Of a stretch of 64,000 nt of DNA, positions 15,201 to 64,000 are shown piece after piece. How positions within the stretch are numbered: the first letter of the stretch is position 1; each line of letters opens with the position of its first letter. The notes below the pieces were generated by a model that saw nothing but the letters and a program-made list of their open reading frames with translations, did no database searches and was not told the origin of the DNA. Position numbers and translations under genes: made by a program. This stretch comes from Corallium rubrum (taxonomy: Eukaryota; Cnidaria; Anthozoa; Scleralcyonacea; Coralliidae): NCBI GenBank assembly GCA_964035015.1, contig OZ036008.1, forward strand, positions 11,292,692 to 11,356,691, in the 5' to 3' direction.

Positions 15201-18200
15201 CCCGCTTACCGAGCTATCCCGGTAAGTGGGCTGATTCGCCTCCATATAAAGAGCCCCTTACAATGGTACTCTCAGTTATTTACGTGAATTTGTTTCCATT
15301 ACTCTAGAAATAATTTTAATGAAGAGACACTCGAACTTCACCGGCGAATCATGGGAGAACTGATTCAACGAGACAAAAATCATCCTTCTGTTGTTATGTG
15401 GTCAGTAGCTAATGAACCTCGAACAGATCTTGAAGAATCTGAAGATTATTTTAAGTAAGACCATTTTTACCTGTTATTCTATTTTATCTTTGTTGCTTTA
15501 TTAGATAGTTCGGTTATAATTTGGTGAAATATTTTATTAATTTCAGAGATATTTTTGAAGAAACACGACGGCTTGATTCCACTAGACCAGTAACATTTGT
15601 TACACACATGAGACCAGTGAATGACAAAGCTGTGAGTTTTGACAATGTGGATCCAGCTGGGTGCAGTTAGCACAGGAAGGAAAGAAGGAAAGGAAGGAAG
15701 AAAGGAAGGGAGGGAGGGAGGGAGGGAGGGAGGGAGGGAGGGAGGGAGGGAGGGAGGGAGGGAGGGAGGGAGGGAGGGAGGGAGGGAGGGAAGGAAGGAA
15801 GGAAGGAGGGAGGGAGGGAGGGAGGGAGGGAGGGAGGGAGGGAGGGAGGGAGGGAAGGAAGGAAGGAAGGAAGGAAGGAAGGAAGGAAGGAAGGAAGGAA
15901 GGAAGGAAGGAAGGAAGGAAGGAAGGAAGGAAGGAAGGAAGGAGGAAGGAGGAAGGAAGGAGAGAAGGAAGGAAGGAGGGAGGGAAGGAAGGAGGGAGGG
16001 AAGGAAGGAGGGAAGGAGGGAAGGAGGGAAGGAGGGAAGGAGGGAAGGAAGGAAGGAAGGAAGGAAGGAAGGAAGGAAGGGAGGGAAGGGAGGGAGGGAG
16101 GGAGGGAGGGAGGGAGGGAGGGAGGGAGGGAGGGAGGGAGGGAGGGAGGGAGGGAGGGAGGGAGGGAGGGAGGGAGGGAGGGAGGGAGGGAGGGAGGGAG
16201 GGAGGGAGGGAGGGAGGGAGGGAGGGAGGGAGGGAGGGAGGGAGGGAGGGAGGGAGGGAGGGAGGGAGGGAGGGAGGGAGGGAGGGAGGGAGGGAGGGAG
16301 GGAGGGAGGGAGGGAGGGAGGGAGGGAGGGAGGGAGGGAGGGAGGGAGGGAGGGAGGGAGGGAGGGAGGGAGGGAGGGAGGGAGGGAGGGAGGGAGGGAG
16401 GGAGGGAGGGAGGGAGGGAGGGAGGGAGGGAGGGAGGGAAGGGACGGATGGAAAAGAAAGATGGAATTTAATGTGTATAAGCTATACTATTTCTTTCTTT
16501 CTCTTCAGATTCGTTTTGTAGATGTCCTTTGCTGTAACCGTTACTACTCTTGGTACCATGACTTCGGGCATTTGGAAATCATTCAGAGCAAGCTGGAATT
16601 TGAACTACGCGAATGGTTCAACGTTAGCAAGAAACCAATTATACAAACTGAATATGGTGCTGGAGCAGTAGCTGGTTTGCATATGGTTAGTTCAAAAGGA
16701 AATAGTGTATTACTAGCCTCCTCCGTAGGCAACTCTTTTGGGCCCTCGCTTTTGATCAGGGGACGTGTGGGATTTGTGTGACAACGCTAGGCGACGAATT
16801 TTACGGCATTCATTCCCCTTTTTGCTGGAGAAAACAAGAGTTGCCTGCGGAGGAGGCTAGTGTATTACAAAGTATCTTATGACCAATTGCTTCCAAACCG
16901 TCTGTATACAAAGTATCAGAGTTGTCAGCCTGCCGCTCAAAATGTCAGTGTTTCGTTATGAAAACTATTCTCGGCAGTTTATCATCTTTTCACTTCGCTC
17001 TATCTAAAACACTGCCTATAAACACTCTACTTTTTACGCTTCTGTAGAAGGTATCACTCGTGCCGTGTTGTGTCTGTCTATAATTTTCTGTAGGTTTATA
17101 ATAAGTGTACTTACGCACCGTGCGTTATGTTTCGTAAAAAAACCCAATTTAATCAAAAAAGCGAACTCTTTTTTAGGAACCGCCAGTAATGTTCAGTGAA
17201 GAATACCAGGTGAGAAATAGAGCATATGTTTGCGAGATATTGATAGGAGACAATGGAGAGATGATTTTGTCGAGTGGATATTTCCAAATTAATTTATTAT
17301 TGAGTCGGGTTTCTTTGTGCTTTCGAGGGCTTTGTATCCATAAAGCCCTTGAATGATAATTAGAAACGAAATGAAGAAAAAAACAAGGAAAATCTTTGCC
17401 CAAGGTGGAAAAAAAAGACAAAACTTTGTTGGAAAACCTCCTCAATAATAAATTAAGTCAGATAAATCCCTCGAACGTCGGGATTTATGCGATATAAAGC
17501 CTTTATATAAAGCGGCTCCCCACACACACACACACACACAAAAGAAACGGGCGAACTATATGCACTGATCTCAAATAAGACTCATTATACTGGATAGAGC
17601 ATCTATTGTTTCGCGCGTGGCAAAAATTGAAGTCGGAAGTGAGGCTAAAAATCTCGCGGCGGCCATATCCGGTGGGACCCACAATATTGCTGAATCATAG
17701 TTTTCGCCTCTGGTTTTCGCTTTATATGATCGGATTTTTAATGAAAACCAGCTAAATTTTTGTGACATGTATCTGTCGCTATGGGAGAACTTAAAAGTGG
17801 CTGTATGAAAACCAAGTGGGTCCCACCTGAAATGGCCGCCGCTAATTTATTCCGACTTCACAGCGAGCACCGGATGCTCTATCCAGTATAATGAGTCTAT
17901 TATTTGAGATCAGTCACTATATACGATGATGATCACAGGGGATGATGTATCCGGTTTACAGCATACTAGTTAGGACCCGTTTCTTCTATCCTCATGAAGT
18001 ATTAACGAATATTTTAAGAATAAATCTACATAATCACTTGATTCACAGGTTGCTTCAGTTCGTGAGTATTTTAAAGTATTCGATAAACTACGCCACGAGT
18101 TCCTCACTGGAGAAATGATTTGGAGTTTTGCAGATTTCATGACCTCGCAAGGTAAGATATATTGTTTCACTTTGCATCCCACGCTATCATCATTGGGGGA

Positions 18201-20000: not shown

Positions 20001-23000
20001 TCAATTCTTTTCCACCATATCAGGCGGGGCTCGTCGACCCCACTCGGCCCAGGACCCATCGTAAACACCCACGTCCTTATGTCCGCACTGATGAGCTGCT
20101 AACGCCAGAACTGAAGCTGTAACGCCCGAACCACACGTCGTCGTAATTGGTCGATTCAGGTCAACACCACGCTCGGCAAACACTTGTTTCAATCGTTCAG
20201 GATCCTTCATCAACTGACTCTCCTTATCAAGACACTCGACAAATGGTACATTCAATGAATGTGGTATATGACCAGAAGAAACACCAGGACGAAATTCTTC
20301 TTCACCATCGAATCGTGCTTTTCCTCTGGCGTCGACAACTTGGTACATGCTCCCCCCTGACTGTACATTTGCCACCATGGTTTCATAATCGCGCACTAAG
20401 TCTTTGTTGAGTTTGGCTATGAATGGTTGATTAGCTGAAATAAAAATAGCAAAAAATATCAGTGCAGGTTACTTTGTGTAGCAATTATCGACGAACCTTA
20501 CGTTGTAATATTACAGCGGCGAGCTTAACTCTTTATCGCCCAGTAGCCACTCCATTGACGAGTAAAATCGTCTGGCGTTAGCCAGAGTAAAATACTAAAG
20601 ACATGGCTGATAAAGGGTTAACCGAGATAGTCTATTAAGCCTATATCGCCCAGTAGCCACTCCATTGACGAGTAAAATCGTCTGGCGTTAGCCAGAGTAA
20701 AATACTAAAGACCTTGTTGGGCGTTAAAGTGCACATGAAACGAAAATTAAGTTTATCTTATTTGAAAGAACACTTAAAATGATAGAGTAACATCTTTTGC
20801 AGTTTTTCGTTTCCTTGCTTCGTTCTTGAGATATTTCAGTTTGTTTGATACCCAAATTAAACATTTTGACGTCACACGTGCATAATGACTTATCGAAAAA
20901 CGTTATATATCTTTGATATTGTCAAACATAATCACTTGAAAATCTACATGTTTAGTGTTCTGTGTGAAACACACCCACATGCTTCCTTCGAATTATTTCG
21001 GTTTGATAATAGCAAAGATATATAACTGTTTCTATAGCTCATTATGCACATGTGACGACAAAATGTTTAAGTTGCATATCAAACAAACTGAAATATCTCA
21101 ACAACGAAGCAAGAAAACAAAAAACTGCAAAAGATGTTACGTTCTCATTTTTTAACTTTGGTCGTCAATAAAATCGGCAAAACTCGACATATCAAAAAAC
21201 GCTGACACCGTTTTGCTGGGAATTTATCTCGGAATCAAACTACAAAAAAAGATTTTGAACAAAATAAAACGCTTTTTACTCGAGTCGCCCCGAGTGAAGC
21301 CCTCTGCTTTTAAGTAAAAAAATATTAACGGTTTGTGTTTATCGTAGCCTGCTACGCAGGCTATGTTTATCGTGAAACCAAAGACACCATTGCATTCTAC
21401 AAAGCTTCTAACGATATCTATTTTATTTTTGTGGCATAAATTCTGACGAATTGAGAGCGCTTTATAGAAATACCATGAAAACCTTAACGAAGACTGTTCT
21501 GTAGACGGTATTCCTTTTCTAAAACTTTATTTGTACACTATTTACACGCTCTGTAAAAACTGAACGTCAACACTAATTATAGTTTCTTCATAACAAAGAC
21601 CTTAAGTGTTCTTTCAAATAAGACAGACATAATTTTCGTCTCATGTGCACTTTTAGGAAAATATTACGAAACGCGCTCATGGCCGAAATTTGGACATGAA
21701 ATACTAAACGAACTCTTACTGTTTACGACTGGTTTTTCTCCCGTTTCCATTGGCAAGCCAGCGCTCAACCATCTCGAAAAACCACCATCTAAAACGGATG
21801 TAGTATCGTGTCCAAAACAACGGAACATCCACCAGAGACGCGCGCTCTGGTATACTCCAAAATCTTTATTATTCTCGTAGGCAATAACATGACTATCGTT
21901 GGTGATACCCAGGTGTTGAACGTACTCTGCAAAGAGCTTCTCATCTGGTAACATATGCGGGAATTTATTTGACTTATCGCAGCATTCGTCTATGTCAAAA
22001 CACACTGCTCCTGGAATATGGCCGTTTAGGTAACCTTCACGGGACTGGACTGAATTATTGCCTCCTAGAATCGCTTCTACCACGCGAAGACGTCTCGAAG
22101 TTTTGGTCCTCAGAAGAGCTTGGGCAAGCCAACGTACAGAAACTAACGAAGGTGTTATCTTCATACTTTAATATAGGTATATATGTCAGGACGGTTGATG
22201 TACATAAATGGCAAATGACCGGTGTTCAATCGAATACAGTCACACTTGCGTGCAGCAAGACACGACAGAGGGAAACGGAACAAAAGAGAACCCCGCCCTC
22301 ATTCGCGTAGAAACGTTTCCGGGAACCCTTAATGCCAGTTTTCCACTTAACTGTTTCCTGTGCGTGAAGGTTACTTGATATTTTATCCTGGATAGCGCCA
22401 AATGATTTTATTCATTTCTGGGGAAAGCCCAGGACAGCGATAATTAAAGCGAAATTATTACGAAGTTTTTCTTATCTTGTTTGCTCTTTGTTTGGTAAAG
22501 TAAATATGATAGTGCAGTTACTATAGGTCAAAACGCAGATAAACAAGCCGAAATTGAATCTTGACAGGGACTCGTAAAAGGTCATTTTCTGTTGTTAAAA
22601 ATGAATAAGTTATATAAACTCGGAGACACACGAAAACTAACGTCATCTGCATGTACTCTTTGCTATTGCATTTTGACATCAACTTTATTCTTTTGAATTT
22701 TAAAAACACATATTTTTAATATTTTAAAGTGTCTATGAAATGAAAAATTCGCTGGCATTTTTGTTGTTTTATTGTACAGAGGAGCATGGCAGGAGCATTC
22801 ACTGAAAATTTCAAGAGAATCTGATGCGTAGTTTTCACGCTATAAACTCTCAAAGTTTGCCATGGCTAGTTCGTTCTTGGAGAAAAATTGGGCTTTCGGA
22901 AACAATGCTTATATGACGTACGCAAATGGACAACTATGCATAAGAACAATAGATTTCACTATTAATGATCCATCTGCGTACGTCATAAGGCATTGTTACC

Positions 23001-25299
23001 AAGAAGCCCAAATTTCCCCAAAACAAACTATCCACGGCAAATTTTGAGAGTTGATAGCGCGAAAACCACGCATCAGATTCTCTTGAAATTTTCAGTGAGT
23101 GTTCCTGCCATGCTCCTCTGTACAATAAAACAACAAAAATGCCAGCGAATTTTTCGTTTCATAGACACTTTAAAAGAACAGAAACTTTATAGAACAATGA
23201 GGTACTGAATGAAATTGAAATATTTTTTATTTTTTTATTTATTAACTTTGCCATGATTGTCATATTACAAATATAAATACAGACATTGAGACAACAGGCT
23301 GGGCAACCGCAACAGCTAATGCCAATTACAAATACATATCACATAGACAATTTTTCAAATTGCAGCACCAATGATTAGACAGAAATCTTTGTGTTTAACT
23401 GTAACATGTTGGATGTTGACTCTGACATTGACAAGATGTCAGCAGACATCATCGAAGACAAGTAACCCATTTTTTTTATTTATTAAGTTTGTTTATATAT
23501 TGTAATCACAAAAGAGAAAGTTTAATAGAAAATTTCACTGTTAGCATGAAGGATGTGAAGAGATTATTATTATTCTGTTTATGAATTTAATTTCAAAATG
23601 GCTGAGCGACAGTCACAAGTATCTCGCATGGCCTGACACGCATGTTTTCAGATGACAGACAGGAAATGGACATGGTATATTAGCTAATTTTAGTCAAAAT
23701 AACAATTTTTATTAATAATAAATAAAAAAATATTTATACAGCAGAAAAATTTGATGCGGGTGCTGATGATAAACTGGGATTTTTTTTAAATGGCTTTATA
23801 TAGACAAGTAAACTCTTCTGGCATTGGACAATATTAAAATAATCTGGTGTTAGTCAGAGTAAAATAATAAGTGTTGAATAGCAATAATTATCAATTATTG
23901 GACGAGTCTGAGCGAAATATCATGATTTGTCAGTGGCGAGCTACTAGTTATTTGCCGATGCCAAGGGCAGAGGCAAATAACTAGCAGTGAGACCATGTTT
24001 ACGAGAATTATTTGCCATCAGCAGCATTATCGCTAGTGCGCATGCTCATAAAATTATTTGTAGCAGAAAATTATTTGCAGGTAAATTAACCAATCAGAAT
24101 GCAGGATAGAAATGAAATGAATGATAAATGATAAAGGCCTTCAGGCAACTTTTTGACAATGACATCATAATTTAACATAAACAACATGATAAATAAAATT
24201 AAACCATAGATAATAGAAGGGGAACTGGATAGGAAACTTAAAACAGTGTTATAAATTGCACAACTTGCTATCTAATGGGTGGTCCCACATGGCTGATCAT
24301 GGCCATGTGGGACCAAATTACCATAGCAAGTTGTGCAAACATCGTTTCCGGTGTTGTAACATTTGTTTTAAATTTCCTATCCACAGTTCCCCTAGGCCAC
24401 AGAATAGAGATCAACCAGAAGTCTGACTCGAGTGAAAACTTGTCCGCATTTCTTCAATGCACAGGTGCGATATTTTACGCCATCTGATGCCATCCTATGC
24501 AATCCTACGCAATGTCCTATGCCATTCTACGCAATCCTGGCAAGTTCCCCCCAGCAGTTTTAATAACCTTCTTTTGAAGGTCCAAACTTCCAGGGAACTT
24601 GCCAGGATTGTGTGCATCTTGATTCCTCACCATCCTACACCATCCCGCAAGGCAACATGCGCGAGGATATAAACTTCAAAGGTTCCGACGCGAGTTGGGC
24701 TTCTGGTTGTATTACTCGCGTCGGAACCCTTGAAGTTTATGTCGAATTTCTGAACATTTCCGTCAAAGGTAACCAGAAACCGACTGTGATGATCTAATTA
24801 AAGAGCTTTTAAAATATATCAAAACAATCCAAAAGCATTTAATTCCCTTACCTTTCACAGGCTCTTCGTCTCCCGACTCGACTGGCAAGCCAGCATCTAA
24901 CCATTTTCGAAACCCACCATTTAAAACGGATATAGCACCGTGTCCGAAACAACGAAATGTCCACCAAAGACGAGGACTTGAAAACAGACCAAAATCTTTA
25001 TTATTGTCGTAGGCAATAACATGACTATCGTTGGTTATTCCTAAATGCTGAACGTACTCTGCAAAGAGTTTCTCATCAGGTAACATATGCGGGAACTTAT
25101 TTGACTTATCACAGCATTCGTCTATGTCAAAGAATACAGCCCCTGGAATATGACTGTCGAAATAATCTTCATGAGCTTCAACTGAACCATCTTCGAGCCG
25201 CCATGTTGCATCAACCACGCGAAGTGATCTCGAAGCTTTATTGTGTTTTATGAGAGCTTGAGCAAGCCATTGTACAGAAACTAACGAAGGGATCTTCAT
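20001..25299 (-). CDS. MPST: 3-mercaptopyruvate sulfurtransferase-type protein with two alternative N-terminal exons
   Basis: The C-terminal exon 20001-20434 encodes a rhodanese domain with active-site loop CGSGVTA. This is the mercaptopyruvate type; thiosulfate sulfurtransferase has charged residues at the two positions after Cys. It also has VVDARGKARF and YDGSWAEW. Two separate exons each encode a full N-terminal rhodanese domain beginning at Met: 24852-25299 and 21720-22164. Both end in phase 1 at a GTAAG donor, and the C-terminal exon starts in the matching phase after TTTCAG, so either can splice to it, giving 293 or 292 aa (human MPST 297). The enzyme moves sulfur from 3-mercaptopyruvate to thiols or cyanide, in cytosol and mitochondria. 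I see no second C-terminal exon between the two N-terminal exons. A half-deleted tandem duplicate is the alternative reading. Confidence 0.9.
20534..20710. repeat. Tandem pair of a double-hairpin repeat
   Basis: A roughly 67-base unit (TATCGCCCAGTAGCCACTCC, GACGAGTAAAATCGTC, CTGGCGTTAGCCAG, AGTAAAATACTAAAG) occurs at 20534-20600 and again, nearly identical, at 20644-20710. Single relatives are at 23838, 44918, 48552 and 53437. The two inner motifs are both palindromes. Confidence 0.85.
20724..21654. mobile_element. TTAA foldback MITE, family A copy 2, interrupted
   Basis: The left end TTAAAGTGCACATGAAACG is intact. The right arm breaks near 21147 after AAAAGATGTTAC and resumes at about 21601 with CTTAAGTGTTCTTTCAAATA, so about 450 bases of unrelated sequence are inserted. 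The right TTAA has decayed (CACTTTTAGG). Confidence 0.75.
21720..22164 (-). other. MPST: MPST N-terminal exon, downstream copy
   Basis: Its 148 intact codons start MKITPSLVSVRWLAQALL and end in phase 1 at AACA|GTAAGA. It keeps HIPGAV, FDIDECCDKSNKFPHMLP and LWWMFRCFGHD. Where family members usually read DA(S/T)W it has EAILGG, so it is more diverged than the upstream copy. With its own Met it needs either its own promoter or use as a first exon of a shorter transcript. Confidence 0.85.
22165..24851. other. Region between the two MPST N-terminal exons
   Basis: No rhodanese C-terminal exon is present. It holds TTAA MITE family B copy 2, AT-rich sequence (23180-23880) and a foldback element at about 24215-24405 (inverted TAAATTTCCTATCC, TTGCTAT and GTCCCACATGG blocks). 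Hairpins are also present at 24535-24620 (CAATCCTGGCAAGTTCCC and inverse) and 24665-24745 (ATAAACTTCAA with GTTCCGACGCGAGT, and inverse). Confidence 0.6.
22734..23173. mobile_element. TTAA-flanked foldback MITE, family B copy 2
   Basis: Same ends and central palindrome as 5143-5589: TTAAAGTGTCTATGAAATG, CATCTGCGTACGTCATAAG, and the closing ATAGACACTTTAA. Confidence 0.8.
24852..25299 (-). other. MPST: MPST N-terminal exon, upstream copy
   Basis: Its 149 intact codons start MKIPSLVSVQWLAQALI and end at GTGAAAG|GTAAGG. It keeps the family-typical VVDATW, HIPGAVFFDIDE and LWWTFRCFGHG. It lies about 490 bases from the divergent LRRC43 start codon. Confidence 0.88.
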
Positions 25300-25790
25300 T
25301 TTGTCAACATATAAAGAAGTCTGAACAGTTAGCTTCGAATCTTTGAGTGTCTTTGATCGAGTCTTTGATCTCGAGTATTAAAACGTGCAATTGGTCACAA
25401 TAGACTACACCGGGGGGTGGGGGACGGTTCAACTGAATTACTAAAGTTGTATATATGAATCTTGTTTTACTGGAATAAAATGAGCATTTTATATTTTACG
25501 GAAACTAAAACGTCTATTTCAGGTTTTAGTTTATTATTTTAGTGATAACTAAAGCGCCGAATGACTGGAGGTATACTTAGTGAATTCAGAATGTTCAGTA
25601 TCTCCCCCCTGCTTCCAAAAAATGCATGTTGTTTACCGATGTGTCGTCGGAACATGTCGTAAAGTAACGAAGTAGTCGGTTGTCGTGGAAACGAAAAGCA
25701 ATATGGCGGCCAAATAGCAAGGTTTGCAAGTTTCGTGAATTTTATTGGATAAGAGACTTTTATAGAGTTCTATGGTTAATAGAACAAACG
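25300..25790. promoter_or_regulatory. Candidate bidirectional promoter, MPST and LRRC43
   Basis: The start codons of the minus-strand MPST exon and the plus-strand LRRC43 exon are about 490 bases apart and point away from each other. No clear TATA element is seen. An ATGGCGGCCA (YY1-like) motif lies at about 25702. The promoter role is inferred from geometry only. Confidence 0.35.
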
Positions 25791-36217: not shown

Positions 36218-36401
36218 ATTTTACCAAGTAAATTAAACGACTGAGTTGTGCAAAATATTGTAATATATTATTATTGTAAATGATGTTTTGGTAATGGTAT
36301 CCCACATTTTGTAAATAAAGAGCACATGTGAAAATAACAACTTATTCGATGCATGAATCTTTAGGTACATTTATTATATGTATTTGTAGGTACATGATGC
36401 A

Positions 36402-36402
36402 A

Positions 36403-36461
<59 letters not shown>

Positions 36462-36722
36462 ATACATAAATAAAATTAAATAAATAAATATTAAATAAAT
36501 AAATAAATAAATATTAAATAAATAAACATTAAATAAATAGATAGTTTAAAAAATAGATAAATAGATAATAATAAAATAAATAGATATAGCAAATATTAAA
36601 TAAATATATATTAAAATAAATAAATATTAAATAAATAAATAAATAAATAAATAGATAGATTAAAAAATAGATGAATAAATAGATAAATAAATAAATAAAA
36701 TAAACAAGCAAATAAATAATAT
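36402..36722. repeat. (TAAA)n microsatellite with TAGA and ATTAAA variants
   Basis: About 320 bases of AAAT/TAAA units. Frames such as YLFIYLF are artefacts. Confidence 0.97.
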
Positions 36723-36760
36723 AAATAAATGTACATTTGCAATATGCACAGTAAAGACAT

Positions 36761-36979: not shown

Positions 36980-39900
36980 ATGGAGGCCGAGGCCGCAGTC
37001 AATCGACTAGAAGCATTGGTAAATCGAAAGATATTTCTGTTATGAATTGTTTTACCCCGTCTCTTTGTTTCTTTGTTGTTTATTTTTTTATTTAATGTTT
37101 ACTTCAAAAGTCTGGCGATAGGTATACGTTGGTACAGATGTGAAATGTACGCAAACATTGATCGAAAAATTGAGCGGGAAACTTGAATTTATTAATTTTA
37201 TAGGTTGAAAAAGTGGACTCGGATCTTAACTACGCCATTTTAAGGTTGGAAAACGAGTTCTCTGCTACTTTAGAAGATGAATTACATGGCGAGCTAGAGG
37301 TATAAAGTAATATAATGACTATTTTAATCGCTTTGCGTGCGGTTGAATACTACAGAAATTATTTGTACTATAAAACTTATCTATTTATTAAACAATTTAT
37401 AGATTATGAGCTCGAAATTTTCACTTAATTTCAGATTAATCCAGTCAAACTGATTGAAAGACTTGAAAAAGTGAAAGAAGATTTTAAGATGCTTACAAAT
37501 GAAGCAAAGGACATAGAAATTGAACAAAAGGCAAGGTTTTATTTATGTTTATATATAATATATTTTAAATGTACAATAAATACTTATTACTAAAATTATA
37601 TTGATATTCAACAGTTGGTGATTGGTATTAGATTGGTATTTGTAATTTTTGAGCCTTTTCAATTGTTTTGTAATGTTTATTTTTCGGTTGGCTTTTATAA
37701 CATGAAATATGACATGAAAACAACATGAAAACAATGCTTTTAATACAAAATGTCTAGTGACAGATATTTAAGAAATAGAAAATGGGCATTCGTGTTTTAT
37801 ATAGCAACATACATTTATTAAGCTTAATTAATTTGTAATTTAGAACATGACCAAGGATTTGTGTGCTGCTATCCGTAAACCCATGAAACAGATTCACCAA
37901 ACTCAACTGCTAGCTGGAGTACAACCAACACATGATCCTACAGAAGAACTAAGAATCCTAACTGGGGATTGTGATAAAATAGGTATATATATATATACTG
38001 TACTATACACATTTGTAGGAAATATTGGAACACAAGTGTAAGAAGTTATATATCATACACAAGGAGGAGTGTTTCATCAGGATTTCCAAACACCGAGACT
38101 TTTGTTCAAAGCTGAGGTTTTTGAACAAATTTCAAGTTGTTTGGAATCCCTGATGAAGCACTCTTCTGAGTGTATGATATAGCTTCTCAAACAAATCAGT
38201 ATTTTAAGAGAAAATCAAGGCAAAAGTTGGCTTAATTTATGTAGTTTCTTCCTCTGATATCAAAACCTCCATCTCAGTACTGATTTCTTTTGTTTTCAGT
38301 TCATGAATTAATGAATTTGAGAAATATATTTAAAATTTTTCTTCATCATATAAACCAGATGATATTATGATCGTGCAAAAAAGCAGAGTGCTGTGTAGGA
38401 AGTGTTTTAGATAGAGCAAAGTAAAAATGTGGTAAACTGCTGAGATTTTTCGTAATGGAAACAGAATGACAATACACCACAGACAAAATTTCAACAGAGC
38501 AATTCTCAACATTTAGATTGGTTTTCTAGAAATATATGATTAAATTAATGAGTATACTTCTTTCCTTATCAATTTACGTGTAGAGAATGAGAGTGAGTCA
38601 CAATTTACCAATGTTCAAGATGTACACAAAGGTAACTTGATGCTTTAAGTACATGTATGTAATGGTACTTCAGTTTCTTGTTTCATGCTGGTGAATTTTA
38701 AGGTGGATTTCCACTAGATGTAAAATACCATGTGCTTAAAAAACTAAACTAACCTTATTTATAATGGATAACTCTATCAGTTATATCTAAACTGTTACCA
38801 TCAGAGGTCCAGTAAGGGCCCACCCTCATTGGTCCAGTGTTACTACAGGAGGAAACCGGAGTACCTGGAGGAAACCTGTGGTATTTGGTAGAGTCAAACT
38901 GGAAGCACTCTTCTCACAGGTGGCCAGGGTGAAATTTTTTTAATCAGATAACTGCACCGTGCAGGAATCGAATCCGGTCGCAGAGGTGAAAGGCACGTGC
39001 ACTAACCACTGTGCCACCAACACCCCTTGATGTTTCTATTGTACAAATTGAATAGCTCTCTACTTTGTTCCACATGGAAACTCATAAAACAAAAGAAAAA
39101 AGTCAAGTGTGTGATATTTTACCCCTAGTGGAAATTCAGCTTTAGGTGCCATCTACATGTAACTTACATGCTGTGATTCTTATAATTTATACAAAATGGT
39201 GTTTACAGATAGAAACATAGCCGTCTTACGAGATAATAGCAAGGACTTTATACCGATAACACATGAGGAGTTCATGGCTGTATCTGAGTTAGTGCGTGGA
39301 AGATCAAAATTGTCGGATGTGAACCAGGTAAAGGGTGAATTTCTTTATTTACATATGCAGGGCATTAGACCAAAGAAAAAAAAGATTTGTTTTTGGTAAC
39401 AAGCTGAGAATAATCTAGTAGAGTGGAGTGAAGATCAAGTAGAGTCAAGCTGCCAAGTACAGTCAAGTAACTCCAGCCATCAATTAATCTTTCTATTTTT
39501 CATCTTGCTATTTTTTTGAATCAGGTTTATGAAATACTTTTTGAATATTTCAAGAAGAATCGTAAAGGGTAAGTACAGTGTAAATGAAATTTACACAACA
39601 TACATTTTTTCTTTTATATTTTTCATTAACAATTTCTTTTCATTTTCTAAGTGCTTTGAGTCTGAAAGACATGACACAAATGGGTTTAAAAGTGTCAGGA
39701 GCCACTGGGAGTGCAAAATTAAAGGTAAATACATCATTTATTTATAAGCCTGCAGATGTCATTGCTGAAATTGCTATGTAGTTAATTATCAAACTCCTTG
39801 ATATTTATTCTGGAAGAAGAAAAAAAAAATTTAAGTAATATTTGTAAATATAGATTCATCCTGATTTATATACATCTCCATTCAATTTTCTCCACTTGAA

Positions 39901-40017
39901 AAAAACTTATATCTTTAAGATTGTTGATAAACTAACACAATTCTCTTTTATTCTTAGGTTTTACGGACACTGAAAGTCATTCAGATCAACAAACAGGGGA
40001 CTGTGAAAATGACATGA
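36980..40017 (+). CDS. SKA2: SKA2-like kinetochore protein with a C-terminal SKA1-type winged-helix-like domain
   Basis: Nine exons: 36980-37018, 37204-37299, 37435-37530, 37844-37982, 38584-38631, 39209-39327, 39525-39568, 39652-39724, 39958-40017 (TGA). They total 714 bases and close in frame as 237 aa. Residues 1 to about 115 match SKA2: MEAEAAVNRLEALVEKVDSD, then NPVKLIERLEKVK and a coiled coil with LCAAIRKPMKQIH. The SKA complex couples kinetochores to spindle microtubules, and vertebrate SKA2 is only about 120 aa. Here the chain continues through a linker to residues 154-237 (ITHEEFMAVSELVRGRSKLS, VYEILFEYFKKN, LKVLRTLKVIQINKQG), which resembles in order and spacing the SKA1 microtubule-binding winged helix. 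Intron 3 uses a GC donor (AAG|GCAAGG). The start codon gives the conserved MEAE. A foldback MITE lies 50 bases upstream. Confidence 0.85.
38040..38330. repeat. Dispersed foldback-type repeat in SKA2 intron 4
   Basis: GGAGGAGTGTTTCATCAGGA is partly mirrored by the inverse near 38150 (CCCTGATGAAGCACTCTTC). Its right part (GTTTTCAGTTCATGAATTAATGAA) resembles the elements at 8411, 12725 and 33240. Confidence 0.6.
38738..39027 (-). mobile_element. tRNA-derived SINE, copy 2
   Basis: The reverse complement reads GGTGGCACAGTGGTTAGTGC, then a B-box-like GGATTCGATTCC, the same body as copy 1 (CAGGTTTCCTCCAGGTACTC) and ends in ATAAATAAGGTTAGTTTAG. It lies antisense in SKA2 intron 5. Confidence 0.75.
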
Positions 40018-43936: not shown

Positions 43937-46303
43937 CTACCTCAGGTAGTAGTCTATAGCCGTGGAGAAAGCTGCAAATCCAGCACAACCTAACAGTGCT
44001 GCTTTACCACCAGCTGCAAAGAAAAAAGAAAATAAAGTCCATACAGGGGCATTGTTGTGACATTAAAAAGGGGGGGGGCAAAATTTTTAGGAGGGTCCAA
44101 GGGCATGCTCCCCCAGGAAATTTTGAAATCTAGAGTCTCTGAAATGCCATTTCCTGCATTTTAGGACAAGGATGTACAGAATTCTAAAGGTCCAAAAATG
44201 TCATAAAATACTCAAAAGTCAACACTTTTCCGGACATTGAATATCTGCATTCAAATTTCTTTATTATATCTTTATTCAAAGTCGTGGATTAGCTAGGGTT
44301 AGTGCTTTTGTTAATCATAACTTTATTACTGGCCTTGTTTATTACTGGCCTTGTTAAAAAGTGTGTGTGTGTGTGTGTGTGTGTGGGGTGGGCAAACATA
44401 TTCTGGGGGCCCCACCAAAAATGTGGGGGCCTGGGGCACCCTGGTCCCCCTGCTTCTGACGCCTCTGAGTCCATACATTTAGAAAATTGATTACTAATGC
44501 AAACCATGGTAAGAAAAATAAGAAACAAAAACATCACAAATGAAAAACAAAAAAATTCAAGATGTAATGAAGTAAGATGAGGTCCATCAATATATAATTA
44601 TATTATCACGTGTAAGCTATAGTAAGGCTATTAATCACTAACCTCTTAATCCAATAACTCCCCCAGTTATACAGCCTGATAAAGTGCCATTTTTCCAATC
44701 ACTTTTACCTCGATACTAGAGCATGTAAAAAAGACAAGTACAGTAAGGCTCATTGAACCATATTTTAAAAAATTGTTCCAGTGCATTGTTTGGCATTTTA
44801 AATTAAACGTTCCATTCAATGGGGCATCAGGAAAATATGTTTTACCATTGTACTTATAAACATTCATTTCCTTTCACTCCCAAATATGGAATTTTCCTTA
44901 CTTTATTATTTTACTCTGTCTAATGCCAGATGATTTTACTCATCAATGGGTCATTGCAGAAAAGATCCATACCTCCCCCACAGAGGAAATTTGTGCCATC
45001 CGGGGAGGGGAGGGGAGGGGGTAAATCTACTTCTAATAATAGTAAAATGTACTAGGACATCCGAAGGGGGGAGGGGGTCAACTTCACATTTCCTCTGTGG
45101 GGGAGGTGTGGATGTTTTCTGGAATGACCCAACGGGAGAGCTCCCAGAAAGTTGGTAGTGAAAGGGTTAAAATGTAGACTTGAATGTAGAACTGAACAAA
45201 CTCATTACTTACAGATTCAACTACACATTCAGTCCCTGAAAACATTGCTCCAACAACCCCAAAGTTCTTGCCATACGAGGACGCTCGTTGGCCCATTTCA
45301 CGTAAGGTTGCTCTAGCTGAAGTATCAACTTGACCTGTAACACTTGTTGGCATTGAGGTGTCCAAGCCAGCTGTGAATAAACCAAAACCTGCTCCCAGAG
45401 CATAACCTATAGGACACACAGTACTCATAAACATCACTGACTTGTTGCAAAGATTCTTCACAAGAAACCCATAGCAAATAGACAACACGTGGTGGAGTGT
45501 AATTCACAACATGAGGTGGAGCCTAAGCACCCACCCCTAGTCTGCACTCCATGCTAGATATCTCCAAAAATGTTTGGTGTGTTGGTATTAGATCAGTCAA
45601 ACTATAAGTACTTGGTGTAATAGAGTATGCATTAATTTACAATTGCCCCAGAGTGCTTGGTGCATAGGTGATCAGCAGCCACATCAACTCCGAGAAATAT
45701 ACAAACATTTGTGCAATCTCGGTGCAATCGGCCAGGCATATTTGGGTGAATGAGATTGATCTTGGTGTGATTGTCTCTCTCCCCAATCCCCCATTCTTGT
45801 ATATTACATAATCTTGGTGTAGTAGTCAGAAGCATTAAGCTTATGTCCAATGTAAAGTTTACATGGAAATGGGCACCCACTAGATTTACCCTATTAAGTT
45901 AACCCCAAGTCTTAACACTATAAATCATAACCTTTAATAATCGAACACTATTAAAATCATAAACCGAAACCTAACCTATTAAAACCTACTCCTATCTCTT
46001 TGTTTTAAAAGTATGTTTTAGTTTTGTCATAGTAATATTATAATAAGTGATTAAAGTGCAAAAATACATTAATACTTTACCTAAAACGCCGGCCAAAGTC
46101 GATTTAAAAACACAACTCTCCATAATGTTTTCAATGCGTATCTGTTGCGGTGGACGAGGAGATTGTGGTAATCCTGAGATAACATCAATTGGACCTTTCC
46201 TTTTTCTCAGTTCCTCCATCATTGGAATAAATGAAGCAAGCGTTATTTCGTCTCTAAAATCATTTTGTTCGGCTTTCTCTAAAACGTCCCCTGCGTCCGC
46301 CAT
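43937..46303 (-). CDS. TIMM22: Mitochondrial import inner membrane translocase subunit Tim22
   Basis: Four exons on the minus strand: 46081-46303 (ATG at 46303), 45213-45406, 44643-44715 and 43937-44013 (TAG). They total 567 bases and 188 aa (human 194). Exon 1 has ENIMESCVFKS, exon 2 GAGFGLFTAGLDTS and YGKNFGVVGAMFSGTECVVES, exon 3 YRGKSDWKNG and LSGCITGGVIGLR, exon 4 GKAALLGCAGFAAFSTAIDYY. These are the Tim17/22/23-family helices with glycine-rich packing motifs; the Cys of ESC and of TEC correspond to the conserved pair. Tim22 forms the carrier translocase that inserts multispanning carriers into the mitochondrial inner membrane. The frame stays open upstream of the chosen start through a (TGAT)n tract to a Met at 46516, but the family N-terminus fits the shorter start. 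Confidence 0.95.
44040..44470. repeat. Repeat remnant sharing sequence with the hAT element, plus (GT)n
   Basis: 44095-44165 (GGCATGCTCCCCCAGGAAAT, TCTGAAATGCCATTTCCTGC) is the inverse of a segment at 60395-60480 inside the hAT-like element. A (GT)12 tract lies at 44360-44384. Located in TIMM22 intron 3. Confidence 0.6.
44947..45131. mobile_element. MITE with GGGTCATTGCAGAAAA end in TIMM22 intron 2
   Basis: The left GGGTCATTGCAGAAAAGATC and CCTCCCCCACAGAGGAAATT are inverted at the right (TTTCCTCTGTGGGGGAGG, TTTTCTGGAATGACCC). The interior is G-rich. Confidence 0.75.
45407..46080. other. TIMM22 intron 1
   Basis: No recognised gene or element; unclassified sequence in this 674-base intron. 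Confidence 0.5.
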
Positions 46304-52800: not shown

Positions 52801-55800
52801 TGTGTTGTGTTGTGTTGTGTTGTGTTGTGTTGTGTTGTGTTGTGTTGTGTTGTGTTGTGTTGTGTTGTGTTGTGTTGTGTTGTGTTGTGTTGTGTTGTGT
52901 TGTGTTGTGTTGTGTTGTGTTGTGTTGTTTTGTATTGTGCTGTGTTGTTCTGGGTTGTGTTCTGCTGTTTGTATTGTATTGTATTGTGTAGTGTTGTTGT
53001 GCTGTGTTGCGTTTCCTAACCATATAAAAACACGTCCATTACAGCAATACTTACAAAGTAAACATGATGACGCCACAAGCCCATCTAAAAAATACGAATA
53101 AAATAGAACTTATAATATTACCAGACCAGAGCTTCATCCATAACGAGAAAACGAATTAATATTTTAACTTTACTGCAAATGAATCTTCATGAGTAAGCAG
53201 ACCAAGAACTTTCAAAACACTTACAAGTCCACCTTGAAACTATAGCCTGGTTCATCGTCATACATACTAGCTCGTAAAACTTCTGGAGATAAATAACCTA
53301 GAGTACCACACAGATCTAGAAAACAAAATAAAAAGCTGTTTTTCTCTCAAAAAAACCTGCTTTGTCAGCGCATGTGTGCTAAACCAGTCACGAGATTGCA
53401 TGGCATAAACAAAAAAATTACAACTACCAATTCAAGGTTTGAGGAGTAAAATCGTCTGGCGTTAGCCAGAGTAAAATACTAAAAGGCCACCATGGTAGGG
53501 AAAGGTTTAATAGCGCCCAAAATGAGAACTGAAAGTCACTTTTAAAGTTTCTGAGAGTTAAGTAGCAACAAATAGCTGCTTTAATATTTAATACCTGTAA
53601 GTGTTTCGCCATCTTCTAGTTCCTTAGCAAAGCCAAAGTCTGATAACTTTATCCTCTGCTTATCATTAAGAAGGATGTTTTCAGGCTAATAAATAATGAA
53701 AACGTCACTTGTTAGTCACATAGTTATAGTCTGCCACTCATTGTGGACCCATTCTCTTCTGCCTCACATACAGTACACCTTTCAGCCATCATTAATACCA
53801 GCACTTAATGTTGAGGAGATTAAACCAACGTTTAAATCCACCTGCCCACTTCCTGTCTTCCACCTGCCCCACCTCCTGTCTTCCACCTGCCCCACTTCCT
53901 GTCTTCCACCTACCTCACCTTCTGTCTTTCACCTGCCCACTTCCTGTCTTCCACCTGCCCACTTCCTGTCTTCCACCTAACCCACCTCCTGTCTTCCACC
54001 TGCCCTACCTCCTGTCTTCCATCTGCCCTACCTCCTGTCTTCCATTTACCCTACCTCCTGTCTTCCATCTGCCCTACCTCCTGTCTTCCATCTCCTCCAC
54101 CTCCTGTCTTCCATCTGCCCTACCTCCTGTCTTCCATCTCCTCCACCTCCTGTCTTCCACCTGCCCTACCTCCTGTCTTCCACCTAACCCACCTCCTGTC
54201 TTCCACCTAACCCACCTCCTGTCTTTCACCTGCCCTACCTCCTGTCTTCCAACTGCCCTACCTCCTGTCTTCCACCTGTCCCACCTCCTGTCTTCCACCT
54301 GCCCCACTTCCTGTCTTCCACCTAACCCACCTCCTGTCTTCCACCTGCCCTACCTCCTGTCTTCCATCTGCCCTACCTCCTGTCTTCCACCTGCCCCACC
54401 TCCTGTCTTCCACCTGCCCCACCTCCTGTCTTCCATCTGCTCCACCTCCTGTCTTCCACCTGCTCCACCTCCTGTCTTCCACCTGCTCCACCTCCTGTCT
54501 TCCATCTCCTCCACGTCCTGTCTTCCACCTGCCCCACCTCCTGTCTTCCATCTGACCTACCTCCTGTCTTCCACCTGCCCCACCTCCTGTCTTCCATTTG
54601 CCCTACCTCCTGTCTTCCACCTGCCCTACCTCCTGTCCTCCATCTGACCTACCTCCTGTCTTTCATCTGCCCCACCTCCTGTCTTCCATCTCCTCCACCT
54701 CCTGTCTTCCACCTGCCCCACCTCCTGTCTTCCATCTCCTCCACCTCCTGTCTTCCATCTCCTCCACCTCCTGTCTTCCACCTGCTCCACCTCCTGTCTT
54801 CCACCTGCTCCACCTCCTGTCTTCCACCTGCTCCACCTCCTGTCTTCCATCTCCTCCACCTCCTGTCTTCCATCTCCTCCACCTCCTGTCTTCCATCTCC
54901 TCCACCTCCCGCCTTCCATCTTCTCCACCTCCTGTCTTCCATCTCCTCCACCTCCTGTCTTCCATCTGCCCCACCTCCTGTCTTCCATCTCCTCCACCTC
55001 CTGTCTTCCACCTGCCCCACCTCCTGTCTTCCATCTCCTCCACCTCCTGTCTTCCACCTGCCCCACCTCCTGTCTTCCATCTCCTCCACCTCCTGTCTTC
55101 CACCTGCCCACCTCCTGTCTTCCATCTCCTCCACCTCCTGTCTTCCACCTGCCCCACCTCCTGTCTTCCATCTCCTCCACCTCCTGTCTTCCACCTGCCC
55201 CACCTCCTGTCTTCCATCTCCTCCACCTCCTGTCTTCCATCTCCTCCACCTCCTGTCTTCCACCTGCTCCACCTCCTGTCTTCCACCTGCTCCACCTCCT
55301 GTCTTCCACCTGCTCCACCTCCTGTCTTCCATCTCCTCCACCTCCTGTCTTCCATCTCCTCCACCTCCTGTCTTCCATCTCCTCCACCTCCCGCCTTCCA
55401 TCTCCTCCACCTCCTGTCTTCCATCTCCTCCACCTCCTGTCTTCCATCTGCCCCACCTCCTGTCTTCCATCTCCTCCACCTCCTGTCTTCCACCTGCCCC
55501 ACCTCCTGTCTTCCATCTCCTCCACCTCCTGTCTTCCACCTGCCCCACCTCCTGTCTTCCATCTCCTCCACCTCCTGTCTTCCACGTGCCCACCTCCTGT
55601 CTTCCATCTCCTCTCTTCCACCACCCCACTTGCCTTCCACCTGCCCTATCTCCTGTCTTCCACCTGCCCCATCTCCTGTCTTTCACCTGCCCTACCTCCT
55701 GTCTTCCACCTGCCCCACCTCCTGTCTTCCACCACCTCACCTCCTATCTTCCACCTGCCCTACCTCCTGTCTTTCACCTGCCCCACCTCCTGTCTTCCAC

Positions 55801-58800
55801 CTGCCCCAACTCCTGCCTTCCACCGTCCTACTCCACCTCCTGCTGTCCATCTCCTCCACCTCCTCTCTTCCACCTGCCCCACCTCTTCTCTTCCACCTGT
55901 AGCACCTCCTGTCTTCCACCTGCCCCACCTCCTGTCTTCCACCTGCCACACTTACTGCCTTCCATTGGTCCCCACCTCCTGTCTTCCATCTCCTCCACCT
56001 CCTCTCTTCCACCTGCTCCACCTGCACCACTACCCACATATACAATAACATAATTAAGTTTTGTCAGAAATATTTATCACCATGGCAGTCTACCTTCAAG
56101 TCCCTATGAACAATATTTTTAGAATGCATATATTTCACAGCTGTCAGTATTTCATACATCACTTTCCTAAAATTAAAAAGATACTAATTTTTAATACTTC
56201 TGAGGTAAGGCAGGCTCAGTGCTCCTGTATATTTATGTATGTATTAGATACAGTTTTATAGTTCCTCAAACATAAATAACAGTACAAACATGTTTATAGG
56301 TGTCAAATTTGCATTCTCCACCTTTAACTTGAAAAACTTTTAACAGAAAAACTGGCAAACAAACACCACATAGACTTCATAAAAAACAAACCTAGCTCTT
56401 TTCTCAGAGAATGTTACATCTTTGGTTAGCTGATCAAACAGCTCACCCCCAACAGCACTATAAAAATAAATAAAATACCCAATGTGCAGATTGAATCATC
56501 AGCTATTAACATGAATCGTAAGGAAACCAGACTGTAAAGTGTTTTTTTTGTGTGGGGAGCATAAATTCCTTTAAAAAATTTTCACAGCACGGGAAATTTT
56601 TTTAGCATTTTTGGTTGTTAAAGAAGAGATTTTATAACTACTGTATTACATTTTGTTAGATTCACAAAAATTTCACAAAGTTTTTTACTTCTTGTCAGAA
56701 ATGCACAGGTAATGGGGGTTGATATATCAAAAATTCTGTGCAGATTCTTAGACAAATCTTGAAAATGCGTGACAGAAATCTGGACGAAAAATGCTGTATG
56801 GAGAACGTGCTCCACGTGGGCCAACTATTACAGTCTGGTAAGGAAAGAGCCTAAAGCAAGTTAATTTTATTAGTTTATCTTTTTAAAACCCTAACACGTA
56901 TGATACATGCTAGGGTTTTAAAAAGATAAACTAATAAAATTAACTTTCTTTAGGCTCTTTCCTTACCAGACTGTAATAGTTGGCCCACGTGGAGCACGTT
57001 CTCCATACAGCATTTTTCGTCCATACATGATGTATCTAAAGTAAAGTTTACCCATACTCAGGGTTCTCATTAGAAGCCGGTGAACGGCGAAGTTCGCCGT
57101 CTACTTCCTAAATGTTCACCGTCTACTTTTCTGTGTTTAAGAAAAAAATATTTAATTCCTTCTATCGCGTTCTTAAACACTTAAAATGAGTTAAAATGAA
57201 AATACCAGGGCATCATCGACAGATCGTGCTTTGTCAACATCGTGGGATTGGGACCGAGACCTCATCGAGCATGCAAGATTTCACGTGCGGTATCACGCTC
57301 TTTATTTAAATACTCGGAGAAAGCATGAAACGAAAGCAAACGAATCCAAGAGGATCCGATTCATAACGAAAATAGTAAGTATTATATTTTTGTGTTTTAC
57401 GTTTCGTTAGTCTTATAAGCTATCGTCGACGTATGATGCATTTATAATAGCACGAGCCCCGTGAAACGTTTGTCTTTGCATGTGTTTATTATAAATACAG
57501 TCGGGTGTATTATTTATTCGTGTCAGGTTTCAGTTTGATAGAGTGCTTAAAGTTAATATGGAAGGGTCACAACAGGTCGAGACGTCAATTTTCGTGTGTA
57601 TGCATGTTCAAAGACAATGTCAATGTCAATGTATATTAAAGTTTGTGACAGCGAGAGATAAATATTAAATATGAAGTGATTAATTTCATTTTGTCATGTA
57701 TTATTAATAAATATAAATATAAATGTTATAAGATAGGCAGGCCGCAGCCCTGCAAATTTTGTGTTATCCTTACAGTTGATGGTTGTAAAATATATCTTTA
57801 ACAATATAAAGATTTAAAAATCATACTTGAATGTTCTTGGAAGTTGTTTCTATCGACCTTACGCATAACATATTCGCAATCCGGGATTGGTATCCTAGCA
57901 ACGAGGGTGTAAGCGCGGGAAAACGAGCGAAAATCGCTTGTTTTCCCGCGCTTACACCCTCGTTGCTAGGATACAAATCCCCGGATTGCGAATATGTTAT
58001 GCGTAAGGTCTTACCGTCTGTCGAAGCTTCTGATTTTGCTATAAAATGTGAATTTGTGTATTTGACTATATGTATTGCAGACTGAAGTGAACAATTGCAT
58101 ATACATGTACATGTACATAAATAACTATTATATGCACATACATGTAATTACTAAATCGTTGTTTCAAGTATAATTTTTAAACATTTTCATTGTTAATAAG
58201 ATACATTTAAATGTTACAACCATCATTGTTATAATCTACAGTGTCAGTACTAGTAGCTCCATTTGATTAACTGATGAGTGATCTATTAGGTCTGACCACT
58301 GATGACCCAGGACCGTCACCAGGTGATGATAATATTGACAGCTCAAATTCAGATATCTCATCTGGGTCAAACAATGTACGTCCTGATACTACAACTTCAG
58401 CTTCGGCATCAACATCAACAGCTCCATTGTTAAGTTCTAGCTTTTGCTTCACAGAAATCTCCAACCAAGAAGCAACTGGGCAACTTGTTAAGTTGTTCCC
58501 CGACGAAGACCAATCTGCTATTCATCACCACTCAGTTTGTATCCAGAAGTCATGCTGCTGAGTTTCAAAAGGGGAGTTGCTCACTCAATCCAGTTTGAAA
58601 AACAAATTTAAACATGAGTGGCTCCTCGATAAAGAAATAGCATACTCAGCTGAAACTGGTATTTGGTGGTTGATATTTGTTGAGGGAAAGGGGATGTATT
58701 GTTTACTTTGTCGAAAGCATGACATGTCAAACAAGTTCAACAAATTTAAAACATTCAATGCCGATCCATCCATAAGATACCGCAAGCCAACTTTGTTAGA

Positions 58801-61800
58801 ACATTGTTCTTCGCAGCAACATCGTGATGCAGTGACAACAGAGCACGTTCAGAGAATCTCCTGTTTTCACAAAGAAGTTGTCAGTAGAGAAAATACAGCT
58901 GATAGTGTTCTTTTTAAAGTTTTCATGTCAATATACTCGCTTGCAAAACAAGAAATTTCAAACAGGAAATTACTCTCTCTTCTTGCATTAATACAAATTC
59001 TTGGTGTCAAGGAGATGCAGTACTTTAAATACAAATCAGAAGGCGCTATTCAAGAGATGTTTTTGACTATTGGAAAAGTGATTTTGGACACAATTGTCCA
59101 GAAGCTTGTCAGAGCTAATTACATTGGAATTTTATGTGATGATGTTACAGATGTTGCAGTGATGGAACAGTTTATTAACTTTGTTCAGTTTGTCGACCCA
59201 GATACTTATGAACTGGAAACAGATTTCCTATTTGTTGAGAATGTCCTTGAGAAATCTGATTCAGCTGATGCCAAAACTCTATTCACAGTTCTGTGTGACA
59301 AATTGAAATCTTTTGGTATATCTATAGACAAACTATCGAGTCTTGTCAGTGATGGGGCTAGTGTAATGCTAGGAAACAGGTCAGGACTTGCAGTTAGATT
59401 GAAAGAATTAAACCCTAAAAGAGAACAAACGCCCGGGTGTTACAGTAGCCACTTGGACTCTCCAACATTTTATTGGTCAACCTTCATACAAGTTTTTCTA
59501 TGCCATCCTGTCTCAACTAGCTGAATGTTGTTTCTCAGTTCCTGTTTCAAATGCATGGCCAGAGAGAGCGGCAAGTGCAGTGAAGCGAATCAAAAGCAGG
59601 CTAAGGAGCCGACTTTCAAAGCCGATGCTGCAATCTTTGATGTCGATTTCTATCAGTGGTCCTGCAGTGGGCTCCCCGGAATGCGAAGTTCTAATCAAGA
59701 AGTGTGTTGAAGTGTGGAATGCACAAAAGAAAAGGCGTAAGTTGCCAGCTGCATCAGCAAGTAATTCTACTTATGCCGAGGACTTCTCAGTGCCCCTCAG
59801 CTTTGTTGAGGTTGCTGATGCTGCTGTCCAAGTTTCTGGGCCAATGGATGTCATTGTGGACACTGTCGATGTTGCAACAGCCAATTTTGACTTAACAGCA
59901 GAAGAAACAGAGGAAGTGCAAGCTGAAGTCGAAGACGAAGTTGAAGCTGCTAGTGCTATCCTGAATCTAGATCATTATCAAACGGAAACATATGGCATTT
60001 ACACAAATGATTATGAAAATTCATCAGATTCCGATTCGGATTGATAGATTCGGGGGATGACTATTTAAAACGGCATTTTTGAGAAAAGAGCAGCACATAA
60101 AATTTAAATGCGGATATTTTTTGTTCAGTTGGAGGTTCAAAATGCACTCGAACATGAATGACATAAACAAACCAACGTTTAGACTTTAGATATAAGAGAC
60201 AGAGTACAGATAGTACTAACTAATATTGTGTGTACTTAATTGTGACTTGTATGCCATGGCATACAAACTTTATACAAAATTTGTTGGTGAGCATTACACT
60301 TATGTTGTATTTGTGTGTTTAGCGTGCTATTTATCACAAATTTCACCATTAAAACCGTGTTGTGAAAAGCTGAGATTTTTAAAAAAAATGTGTTCTCAGA
60401 ATGCAGGAAATGCTATTTCAGAGACCCAAATTTTAAAAATTTCCCTGGGGAGCATCATGCCCCCGGACCCCCCTACCTGGCTTGTGCCTGTGGCACTCGG
60501 CTCACGCCTTCTGCACTCGCATACTGTACAATACACTCCCTAATACCTTGCTGTCTACTTTTTCTGTTTCTCCTGCTACTTTACATCCTAATGAGAACCC
60601 TGCATACTTACATTTCAAAAATGAGAAAAAAGAAAGTGGGTGACTCAAAGAAATCTACCAGTGAAACTATAAACACAAAAAAGAAGTACCGTAAATGTTT
60701 GATTTAGCGCCGCGGCGCTTATTAAAATTTGCAATCTTTTGGTGCGGTGCTTAATTGAGAGCAGCGCTTAATCAAGAGTGGCGCTTATTAAAAAAAGTTA
60801 ACAAAATGCTCATAACACAACTTTAATTATCCATAGAAAAACCCAATAAATTTAACCCAATAATTTTCATAATACCCAATAGCACAATAAATTCAAAAAA
60901 GAACGTTAACGTCCTGGTCATCGCCTTCTTTATCGTCGTCTATCCATAGATGTGGATCAGAGGCATCTTCGACATCTGAATCAGAGACTTCAAAGAGATT
61001 TGTGTCTGGCTCTTTTAGGATGGACAGCTGCGATCGAAGTACCTCGCGACCTTGACTGGCGAAAAACTCCAGTGATGTATTAAAGATATGTTGATATGTT
61101 AGCGTATCGGTTTGTGTTTTTTTGCTGATTCATCTTTTTCGAAGGTGCGGCGCTTATTAAATTATCCTGCTTCTGGGTGTGGCGTTTAATCGAGAGCAGT
61201 GCTAAATCAAACATTTACAGTACCTACTATTAATTACATTACATTTGTAAGGTTAAATTACTGTAATTACCAATTAGACTAAGTGACAATGGAGTAAGGT
61301 CACTCAGAATACACATTTTAAAGTGTCATTTTAATGATTTTATAAACAGTGCAGTTTCATTCTAGTCCCTACTGATTCGGTCACTTTTCTTGAGCACACC
61401 TGCACCAAAAATTTTTGGGTGGCCAAAAAATGACAAGATCTGAGGATAAAAATGTTTAAGTCTTAGAATGACATTTATGACAACTTACAAAATGTATGTA
61501 CTTACTAATGTTAGAATGACCAGATAATGTTCTTAATATTTTTGCCTCATTTCTTGTAATTTCTCCAATATCACAAGCACCATGATCGCCTAACTTGTCG
61601 ACTATTTTAACTGCATATTCCTGACCTGAGGACTTATGTACACATCTTCTAACTACACTGGACAAACCCCTACAAACAGAGAAACCAAAACAAAACAAAA
61701 CAAAACAAACAATGGATGCGATTGCAGATATACAGAATCATAACAGAGGCCGCGGAAGCACCTGAAAAGTGTGTGTGTGTGGGGGGGGGGGGGGGGGGCA

Positions 61801-62984: not shown

Positions 62985-64000
62985 GTTCGATTATTCGATT
63001 CCAAATCGCCTTGATTTAAATGTTCTTCTGCATAGGCTTACAACGCTTCATTCTTCACTAAATACCTTCATAATAATTTCTAGACATGGTATATTCTTCT
63101 ATCCAACACAAATCATTCAGATATTTGGGATAGAAGTATTTTATTCCAGTTATTTCCGCAGTTTGTGATCATAGCCGGTCGCCGGTCGGTCTATACATGT
63201 ATGTTGACATGCCACAGACTGCGTACGTGACGTCCCCAGATCAGTGACGTCCCCAGATCAGTGGACGTCCCGCAATAAACACGTTTGAAAAGAGACTGGT
63301 GTCGATTAAAGCTTCTGGTCACGTAATCGTAATTATGTCCGTATTTAGCTCAGCAGGTATTTCGTTCGTTCGTTCGTTCGTTCGTTCGTTCGTTCGTTCG
63401 TTCGTTCGTTCGTTCGTTCGTTCGTTCGTTCGTTCGTTCGTTCGTTCGTTCGTTCGTTCGTTCGTTCGTTCGTTCGTTCGTTCGTTCGTTCGTTCGTTCG
63501 TTCGTTCGTTCGTTCGTTCGTTCGTTCGTTCGTTCGTTCGTTCGTTCGTTCGTTCGTTCGTTCGTTCGTTCGTTCGTTCGTTCGTTCGTTCGTTCGTTCG
63601 TTCGTTCGTTCGTTCGTTCGTTCGTTCGTTCGTTCGTTCGTTCGTTCGTTCGTTCGTTCGTTCGTTCGTTCGTTCGTTCGTTCGTTCGTTCGTTGGTAAT
63701 AAGTCCATGACCAATATGCACGAATTTATTGGTTAGGTTTAGGGGGTGTGATGGGGTCAGGCTTTCATGAAGTACCCAGGTTATTTTGGACATGAACTTA
63801 CAACCCGTTCGTTCGTGTCAACTCCCCCTGATAGCCACCCGTCAAGTACCCTGGGAACCAGAGGGATCTCTGTATTATCCTCTGATCTCTCTATTATCCC
63901 CTTTTTCTGAATCCCGAGATAAGTTTTTTCTCCGCGTTTTTTTCGCCTCGCGCCTCGCGCGTTTTTTTTCGCCTCGCGCCTTCGGTTTTTGCCCGCTTTT
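62985..64000. other. Region upstream of PHKG
   Basis: The likely PHKG promoter lies just right of 62984 but I see no TATA box. A triplicate GACGTCCCCAGATCAGT lies at 63230-63268. After the CGTT array the end of the window (63770-64000) has ACCCTGGGAACCAGAGG and CGCCTCGCGC repeats that look like another dispersed element. Confidence 0.5.
63360..63694. repeat. (TTCG)n microsatellite
   Basis: About 84 perfect TTCG units with no interruption. RSFV and TNER frames are artefacts. Confidence 0.98.

Follow-up and report, generated by a model that had tools for sequence, protein, structure and literature searches.

The window analysed here, the whole stretch of 64,000 nt from the Corallium rubrum contig OZ036008.1, contains at positions 36980-40017 a nine-exon gene model for a SKA2-type protein with an additional C-terminal domain (Table 1). 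The gene model, described in the initial annotation as closing exactly in frame at 237 aa, is confirmed: the rebuilt plus-strand exons join to 714 nt, with an open frame of 237 codons followed by a terminal TGA at 40015-40017. All eight introns end in AG, and all but one begin with GT. The exception, which follows exon 3, requires a GC start at 37531 (GC-AG intron), since use of the alternative GT five bases downstream destroys the frame; a GC donor is a less common yet accepted splice type. When Pfam matches were mapped onto the exon model, the SKA2 profile crossed junctions 1-2, 2-3 and 3-4, and the DUF3161 profile crossed junctions 6-7, 7-8 and 8-9. Because the profiles run across exon borders, six of the eight junctions have protein-family support, while the linker junctions 4-5 and 5-6 are based on splice consensus and phase only. 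Exon 5 (48 nt) could be skipped with the frame kept, and exon 6 has a good acceptor whose phase is compatible both with exon 4 and with exon 5.

Table 1. Exons and related features of the SKA2-type gene (positions in the window) and the SKA1 gene of the same genome (contig position)
Feature	Position	Strand	Basis
SKA2 exon 1, start codon and start of coil	36980..37018	+	exon model; Pfam SKA2 residues 4-109
SKA2 exon 2, coil	37204..37299	+	exon model, Pfam
SKA2 exon 3, coil; followed by the GC-AG intron	37435..37530	+	exon model, Pfam
SKA2 exon 4, end of coil and start of acidic linker	37844..37982	+	exon model, Pfam
Exon 5, linker, 16 codons, skippable in frame; without protein-family support	38584..38631	+	splice consensus, phase
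In-frame ATG shortly 5′ of exon 6, possible initiation codon for a stand-alone DUF3161 product of 102 aa	39196..39198	+	
Exon 6, last part of the linker and first part of DUF3161 (ITHEEF...VRGR...DVNQ), significantly SKA1-like part	39209..39327	+	Pfam, shuffles
Exon 7, second helix of the DUF3161 domain	39525..39568	+	exon model, Pfam, predicted structure
Exon 8, DUF3161 domain	39652..39724	+	exon model, Pfam
Exon 9, final helix, predicted hairpin and stop codon	39958..40017	+	exon model, Pfam, predicted structure
SKA1 gene, seven exons, 254 aa	C13:3275757-3281857	-	Pfam SKA1, 2.1e-66 over 243/243 positions

Residues 4-109 match the Pfam family SKA2 (PF16740; 1.1e-16, 61 bits against a cut-off of 30.1), and the human SKA2 PDB chain is matched at 2.4e-10, so that the earlier assignment of the first half of the protein to SKA2 holds. 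Residues 153-228 match DUF3161 (PF11362; 6.7e-13) over positions 5-81 (77 of 83 positions), with scores of 49 bits for the full protein and 51.4 bits for the domain alone, both over the cut-off of 25. Two Pfam families are therefore found above cut-off within a single frame. By its sequence the C-terminal domain, hereafter the head, is already catalogued: DUF3161, which the initial annotation had left unnamed, is a Pfam family of unknown function, and the domain has therefore been seen before in other sequences. The calculated pI is 10.0 for the head, 4.8 for the coil and 4.5 for the linker, compared to 9.7 for the human SKA1 head. Human SKA2, which acts in chromosome segregation and consists of hardly more than the coil, is a protein of 121 aa (123 residues in the PDB chain). 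It has the coil in common with the coral protein, which differs from it (PF16740; PDB 4AJ5) in being ~125 residues longer, the excess consisting of linker and head.

A search of the genome (474 Mb, 312 contigs) with the 237-aa query revealed no second copy of the gene: eight of nine matches corresponded to the locus itself, and the remaining one was a weak match to the coil on contig C1 (E 2.5). In the literature searched, no paper named DUF3161 or PF11362, nothing combined SKA2 with cnidarian and kinetochore, and no title or abstract among those listed dealt with a SKA2 head domain; van Hooff 2017 (GBE) and Tromer 2019 (PNAS) lie outside that scope.

A separate, complete SKA1 gene is present elsewhere in the genome, and its product matches the human SKA1 head at 3e-34. 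The protein studied here can therefore be read as SKA2 bearing a second, minimal head of winged-helix-like type. In the SKA1 gene, the end of exon 4 (MEYLTTEEFEGVPK plus donor) is tandemly repeated about five times in ~160-base steps (locus L009, ~4050-4760, minus strand); the second copy is almost intact, the rest are decayed, and the SKA1 model takes the first one.

We compared the head with SKA1 at the level of profiles. After DUF3161 and SKA2, the next-best of the 24736 Pfam families searched was SKA1 (PF07160), matched by the full protein with 24.1 bits (E 3.8e-5) over residues 46-192 and profile positions 26-171. This match is colinear with the coil-linker-head order of SKA1 itself, and the remaining families listed behind it had E-values of 0.05 or worse. 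The score misses the curated Pfam cut-off for SKA1 (29.6 bits), and the protein is therefore not filed as SKA1. Pfam searches with the head by itself, with head plus linker, or with only the N-terminal half gave no SKA1 match; HMMER filters may hide weak matches in such searches. With the head native and the N-terminal half shuffled, SKA1 was matched in four of five constructs (15.7-17.7 bits, all ending at profile position 171) versus none of four constructs with the N-terminal half native and the head shuffled; thus, the SKA1 signal needs the head. Composition adds to it as well, because the construct matches extend back into the shuffled part. Heads of human and worm SKA1 showed no DUF3161 match, the human one being tried both with and without its insertion. 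A scan of the whole genome with the SKA1 profile, by which the SKA1 gene on C13 was located, returned 26 places (E 10 or better); the SKA2 locus was absent from these, which counts against the link to SKA1, although the scan works exon by exon.

A three-sequence SKA1 HMM was built from the heads of the coral's own, human and worm SKA1. The head scored 12.6 bits with this model, above all of 5000 shuffles, albeit by a narrow lead (best shuffle, 11.6 bits), and the match consisted of two colinear segments (model positions 1-31 and 77-109). The best single segment reached 9.2 bits, with at least five shuffles higher among those listed, and the full 237-aa protein scored 8.5 bits, lower than seven shuffles among those listed. 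In a comparison with 776 reading-frame pieces (45-87 aa, taken from the window and from six other loci), HMMER ranked the head first, followed by the frame of exon 6, itself part of the head; hhalign, applied to 300 of the 776 pieces, gave the same top two (24.8 and 23.5). HMM-HMM alignment of the head with SKA1 by hhalign had a P-value of 7e-4 over 79 columns and was equalled by none of 200 shuffles; its probability was 27%, and 5% when the alignment was forced end to end. Another alignment covered 68 columns.

Judged from these and pairwise comparisons, the SKA1 link of the head is real but partial. When the whole head was aligned pairwise, shuffles did as well in 8 of 3000 cases for the coral's own SKA1, 7 of 2000 for worm and 104 of 2000 for human SKA1. 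For the first 43 residues, no shuffle did as well with the coral's own (0/3000), human (0/2000) or worm (0/2000) protein, and the strongest similarity lies in the ITxEEF...GR...N stretch, in line with the EEF-type start and GR...N helix pointed out earlier. The last 44 residues were equalled by 1266 of 3000 shuffles for the coral's own SKA1, 2296 of 3000 for human and 39 of 3000 for worm SKA1, and are counted as not significant; another shuffle run on the last part of the head gave 1452/2000 and 795/2000, and an ungapped comparison 466/3000. The closing helix and hairpin, not significant alone, are colinear in the whole-head alignments produced by HMMER and hhalign. Pairwise alignment of the SKA1 and SKA2 coils of the coral showed no significant similarity (equalled by 698 of 3000 shuffles). 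For the first helices, homology to the SKA1 head is thus well supported by sequence; for the rest of the head it is plausible. The initial annotation had residues from about 154 onwards follow the SKA1 C-terminal winged helix; the similarity of a basic domain stands, while the missed cut-off, the membership in an already catalogued family, the closing half and the genome scan leave the claim unsupported in its full extent.

According to Abad and colleagues (PMC3923297), the human SKA1 head consists of a winged helix to which two further modules are added, and its microtubule binding maps to R155/236/245, K183/184/203/206 and K217/223/226/227. The internal insertion of SKA1 (model positions ~32-76; human residues ~171-215) has no counterpart in the head, and human K183/184/203/206 sit inside the missing segment. 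In the HMMER alignment, R171, R221 and K230 of the head fall on human R155, R236 and R245, respectively; only R171 is secure, because hhalign shifts the closing part of the alignment. Overall, the head shares with that of SKA1 (PF07160; PDB 4C9Y, 4CA0, 2LYC) the ITxEEFxxV...GR...N start, the coil-linker-head order, a high pI and a closing hairpin predicted at low confidence, and differs from it in the absence of the middle insertion, a score below the Pfam cut-off and a closing half without significant similarity. The intron positions were compared as well. RKG-AL of the head is paired by hhalign with TKG-CF of the coral's own SKA1, and in both genes an intron lies within that glycine codon, in phase 2 in SKA2 and in phase 1 in SKA1. 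The two positions, one base apart, suggest a common intron that slid; the remaining introns of the two genes disagree.

A single-sequence structural model of the head was obtained at low confidence (pLDDT 64, pTM 0.53; 43-50 for the other four models). It contains a strand at 5-7, helices at 10-21, 29-43, 50-54 and 65-76, and strands at 78-81 and 86-88. At this confidence, the predicted order of extended start, helices and closing hairpin would be like that reported for SKA1 (PMC3923297), minus the insertion. Fold searches with the model did not return SKA1 among the matches listed.

As a whole, the observations are probably best explained by a SKA2 protein carrying a second, minimal winged-helix-like head akin to that of SKA1. 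In humans, SKA2 forms a triple-helix bundle with SKA1 and SKA3 (PMC5036024), and two such bundles pair into a W-shaped dimer whose ends carry the C-terminal parts of SKA1 and SKA3 (PMC5036024, PMC7614391). The coral coil would join the SKA bundle in the same way, and the SKA2 head would emerge alongside the SKA1 heads at the ends of the dimer, giving four heads per dimer rather than two. Putative microtubule binding by the SKA2 head would be in keeping with its high pI and with the basic residues that align to those of human SKA1; placed next to the SKA1 head, this simpler basic head could provide more but weaker tubulin contacts of electrostatic nature.

The main rival with respect to function is binding of another partner. 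A SKA1-related head that no longer binds microtubules might hold the SKA1 head, NDC80 or a phosphatase, or position the complex, and the segment with human K183/184/203/206, one microtubule-binding cluster, indeed has no counterpart here. Given the head pI of 10.0 and the alignment of R171 with human R155, joined in the HMMER alignment by R221 and K230 on R236 and R245, we consider such a loss of function unlikely. It appears rather improbable that the head is of other descent, a helix-turn-helix or winged-helix module fused to SKA2 whose likeness to SKA1 is a generic motif opening such folds. The significant likeness is limited to the first ~40 residues of the head, and the exon 6 motif FIPITHEEFMAV...R.R (FIxITxEExxAVxxxxRxR) resembles PDB chains of DDRGK1/UFL1 (E 0.16-0.26, not significant), perhaps as a generic winged-helix start; however, SKA1 is third of the 24736 Pfam families, with E-values of 0.05 or worse for the others listed, the whole-head alignments by both HMMER and hhalign are colinear, and the host protein is itself a SKA subunit. 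Least probable is that the locus yields two proteins, namely a short SKA2 that stops within the linker and an independent, small DUF3161 protein made from the ATG at 39196 or from its own promoter. This ATG is in frame with exon 6 (102-aa product, DUF3161 1.3e-13) and therefore leaves room for a separate short product, junctions 4-5 and 5-6 are without protein-family support, and a single ATTAAA at 38539 could serve as a polyadenylation signal, but AATAAA is absent from 37983-39208, the good exon 6 acceptor fits exon 4 and exon 5 in phase, and two genes would require the chance placement of a SKA1-head relative immediately after SKA2, with matching strand and phase.

The three SKA subunits have been called paralogues (PMC6927755); a paralogous relation of SKA2 to SKA1, also put forward in the initial annotation, is thus already present in that publication. 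If SKA2 carries a SKA1-like head, the short vertebrate SKA2 would be a truncated form, and vertebrate loss of the head is plausible. We tentatively propose, with somewhat less than even confidence, that ancestral animal SKA consisted of paralogues in which a coil was in each case combined with a microtubule-binding head of the winged-helix type, that the minimal SKA2 head is DUF3161, kept in this lineage and lost in vertebrates, and that the textbook two-head dimer is a reduced four-head complex. Were this true, a Pfam family of unknown function would gain a place at the kinetochore and a likely job, SKA2 would do more than hold the SKA complex together as a coil, and animal lineages would differ in how many microtubule contacts each SKA complex makes. 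An insertion-less head next to the SKA1 head would then offer a natural comparison to identify the SKA1-head parts needed for tracking microtubule ends.

Several other features were observed in the window. Long four-base microsatellites are located at 15703-16452, 63361-63694 (perfect through 83 copies), 36401-36730 and 10205-10464, one of them just upstream of SKA2. A 2.2-kb tandem array with a 23/46-base unit at 53837-56023 has a strong strand asymmetry (GC skew -0.76). On the minus strand, several similar sulfurtransferase-like reading frames lie at 20004-25377, of which 21667-22167 matches Pfam Rhodanese, and a reading frame at 45087-45503 has a Tim17/Tim22 match (the first five letters of the query were inexact). 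Long reading frames at 58562-60041 on the plus strand resemble a zinc-finger/hAT-type transposase relative.
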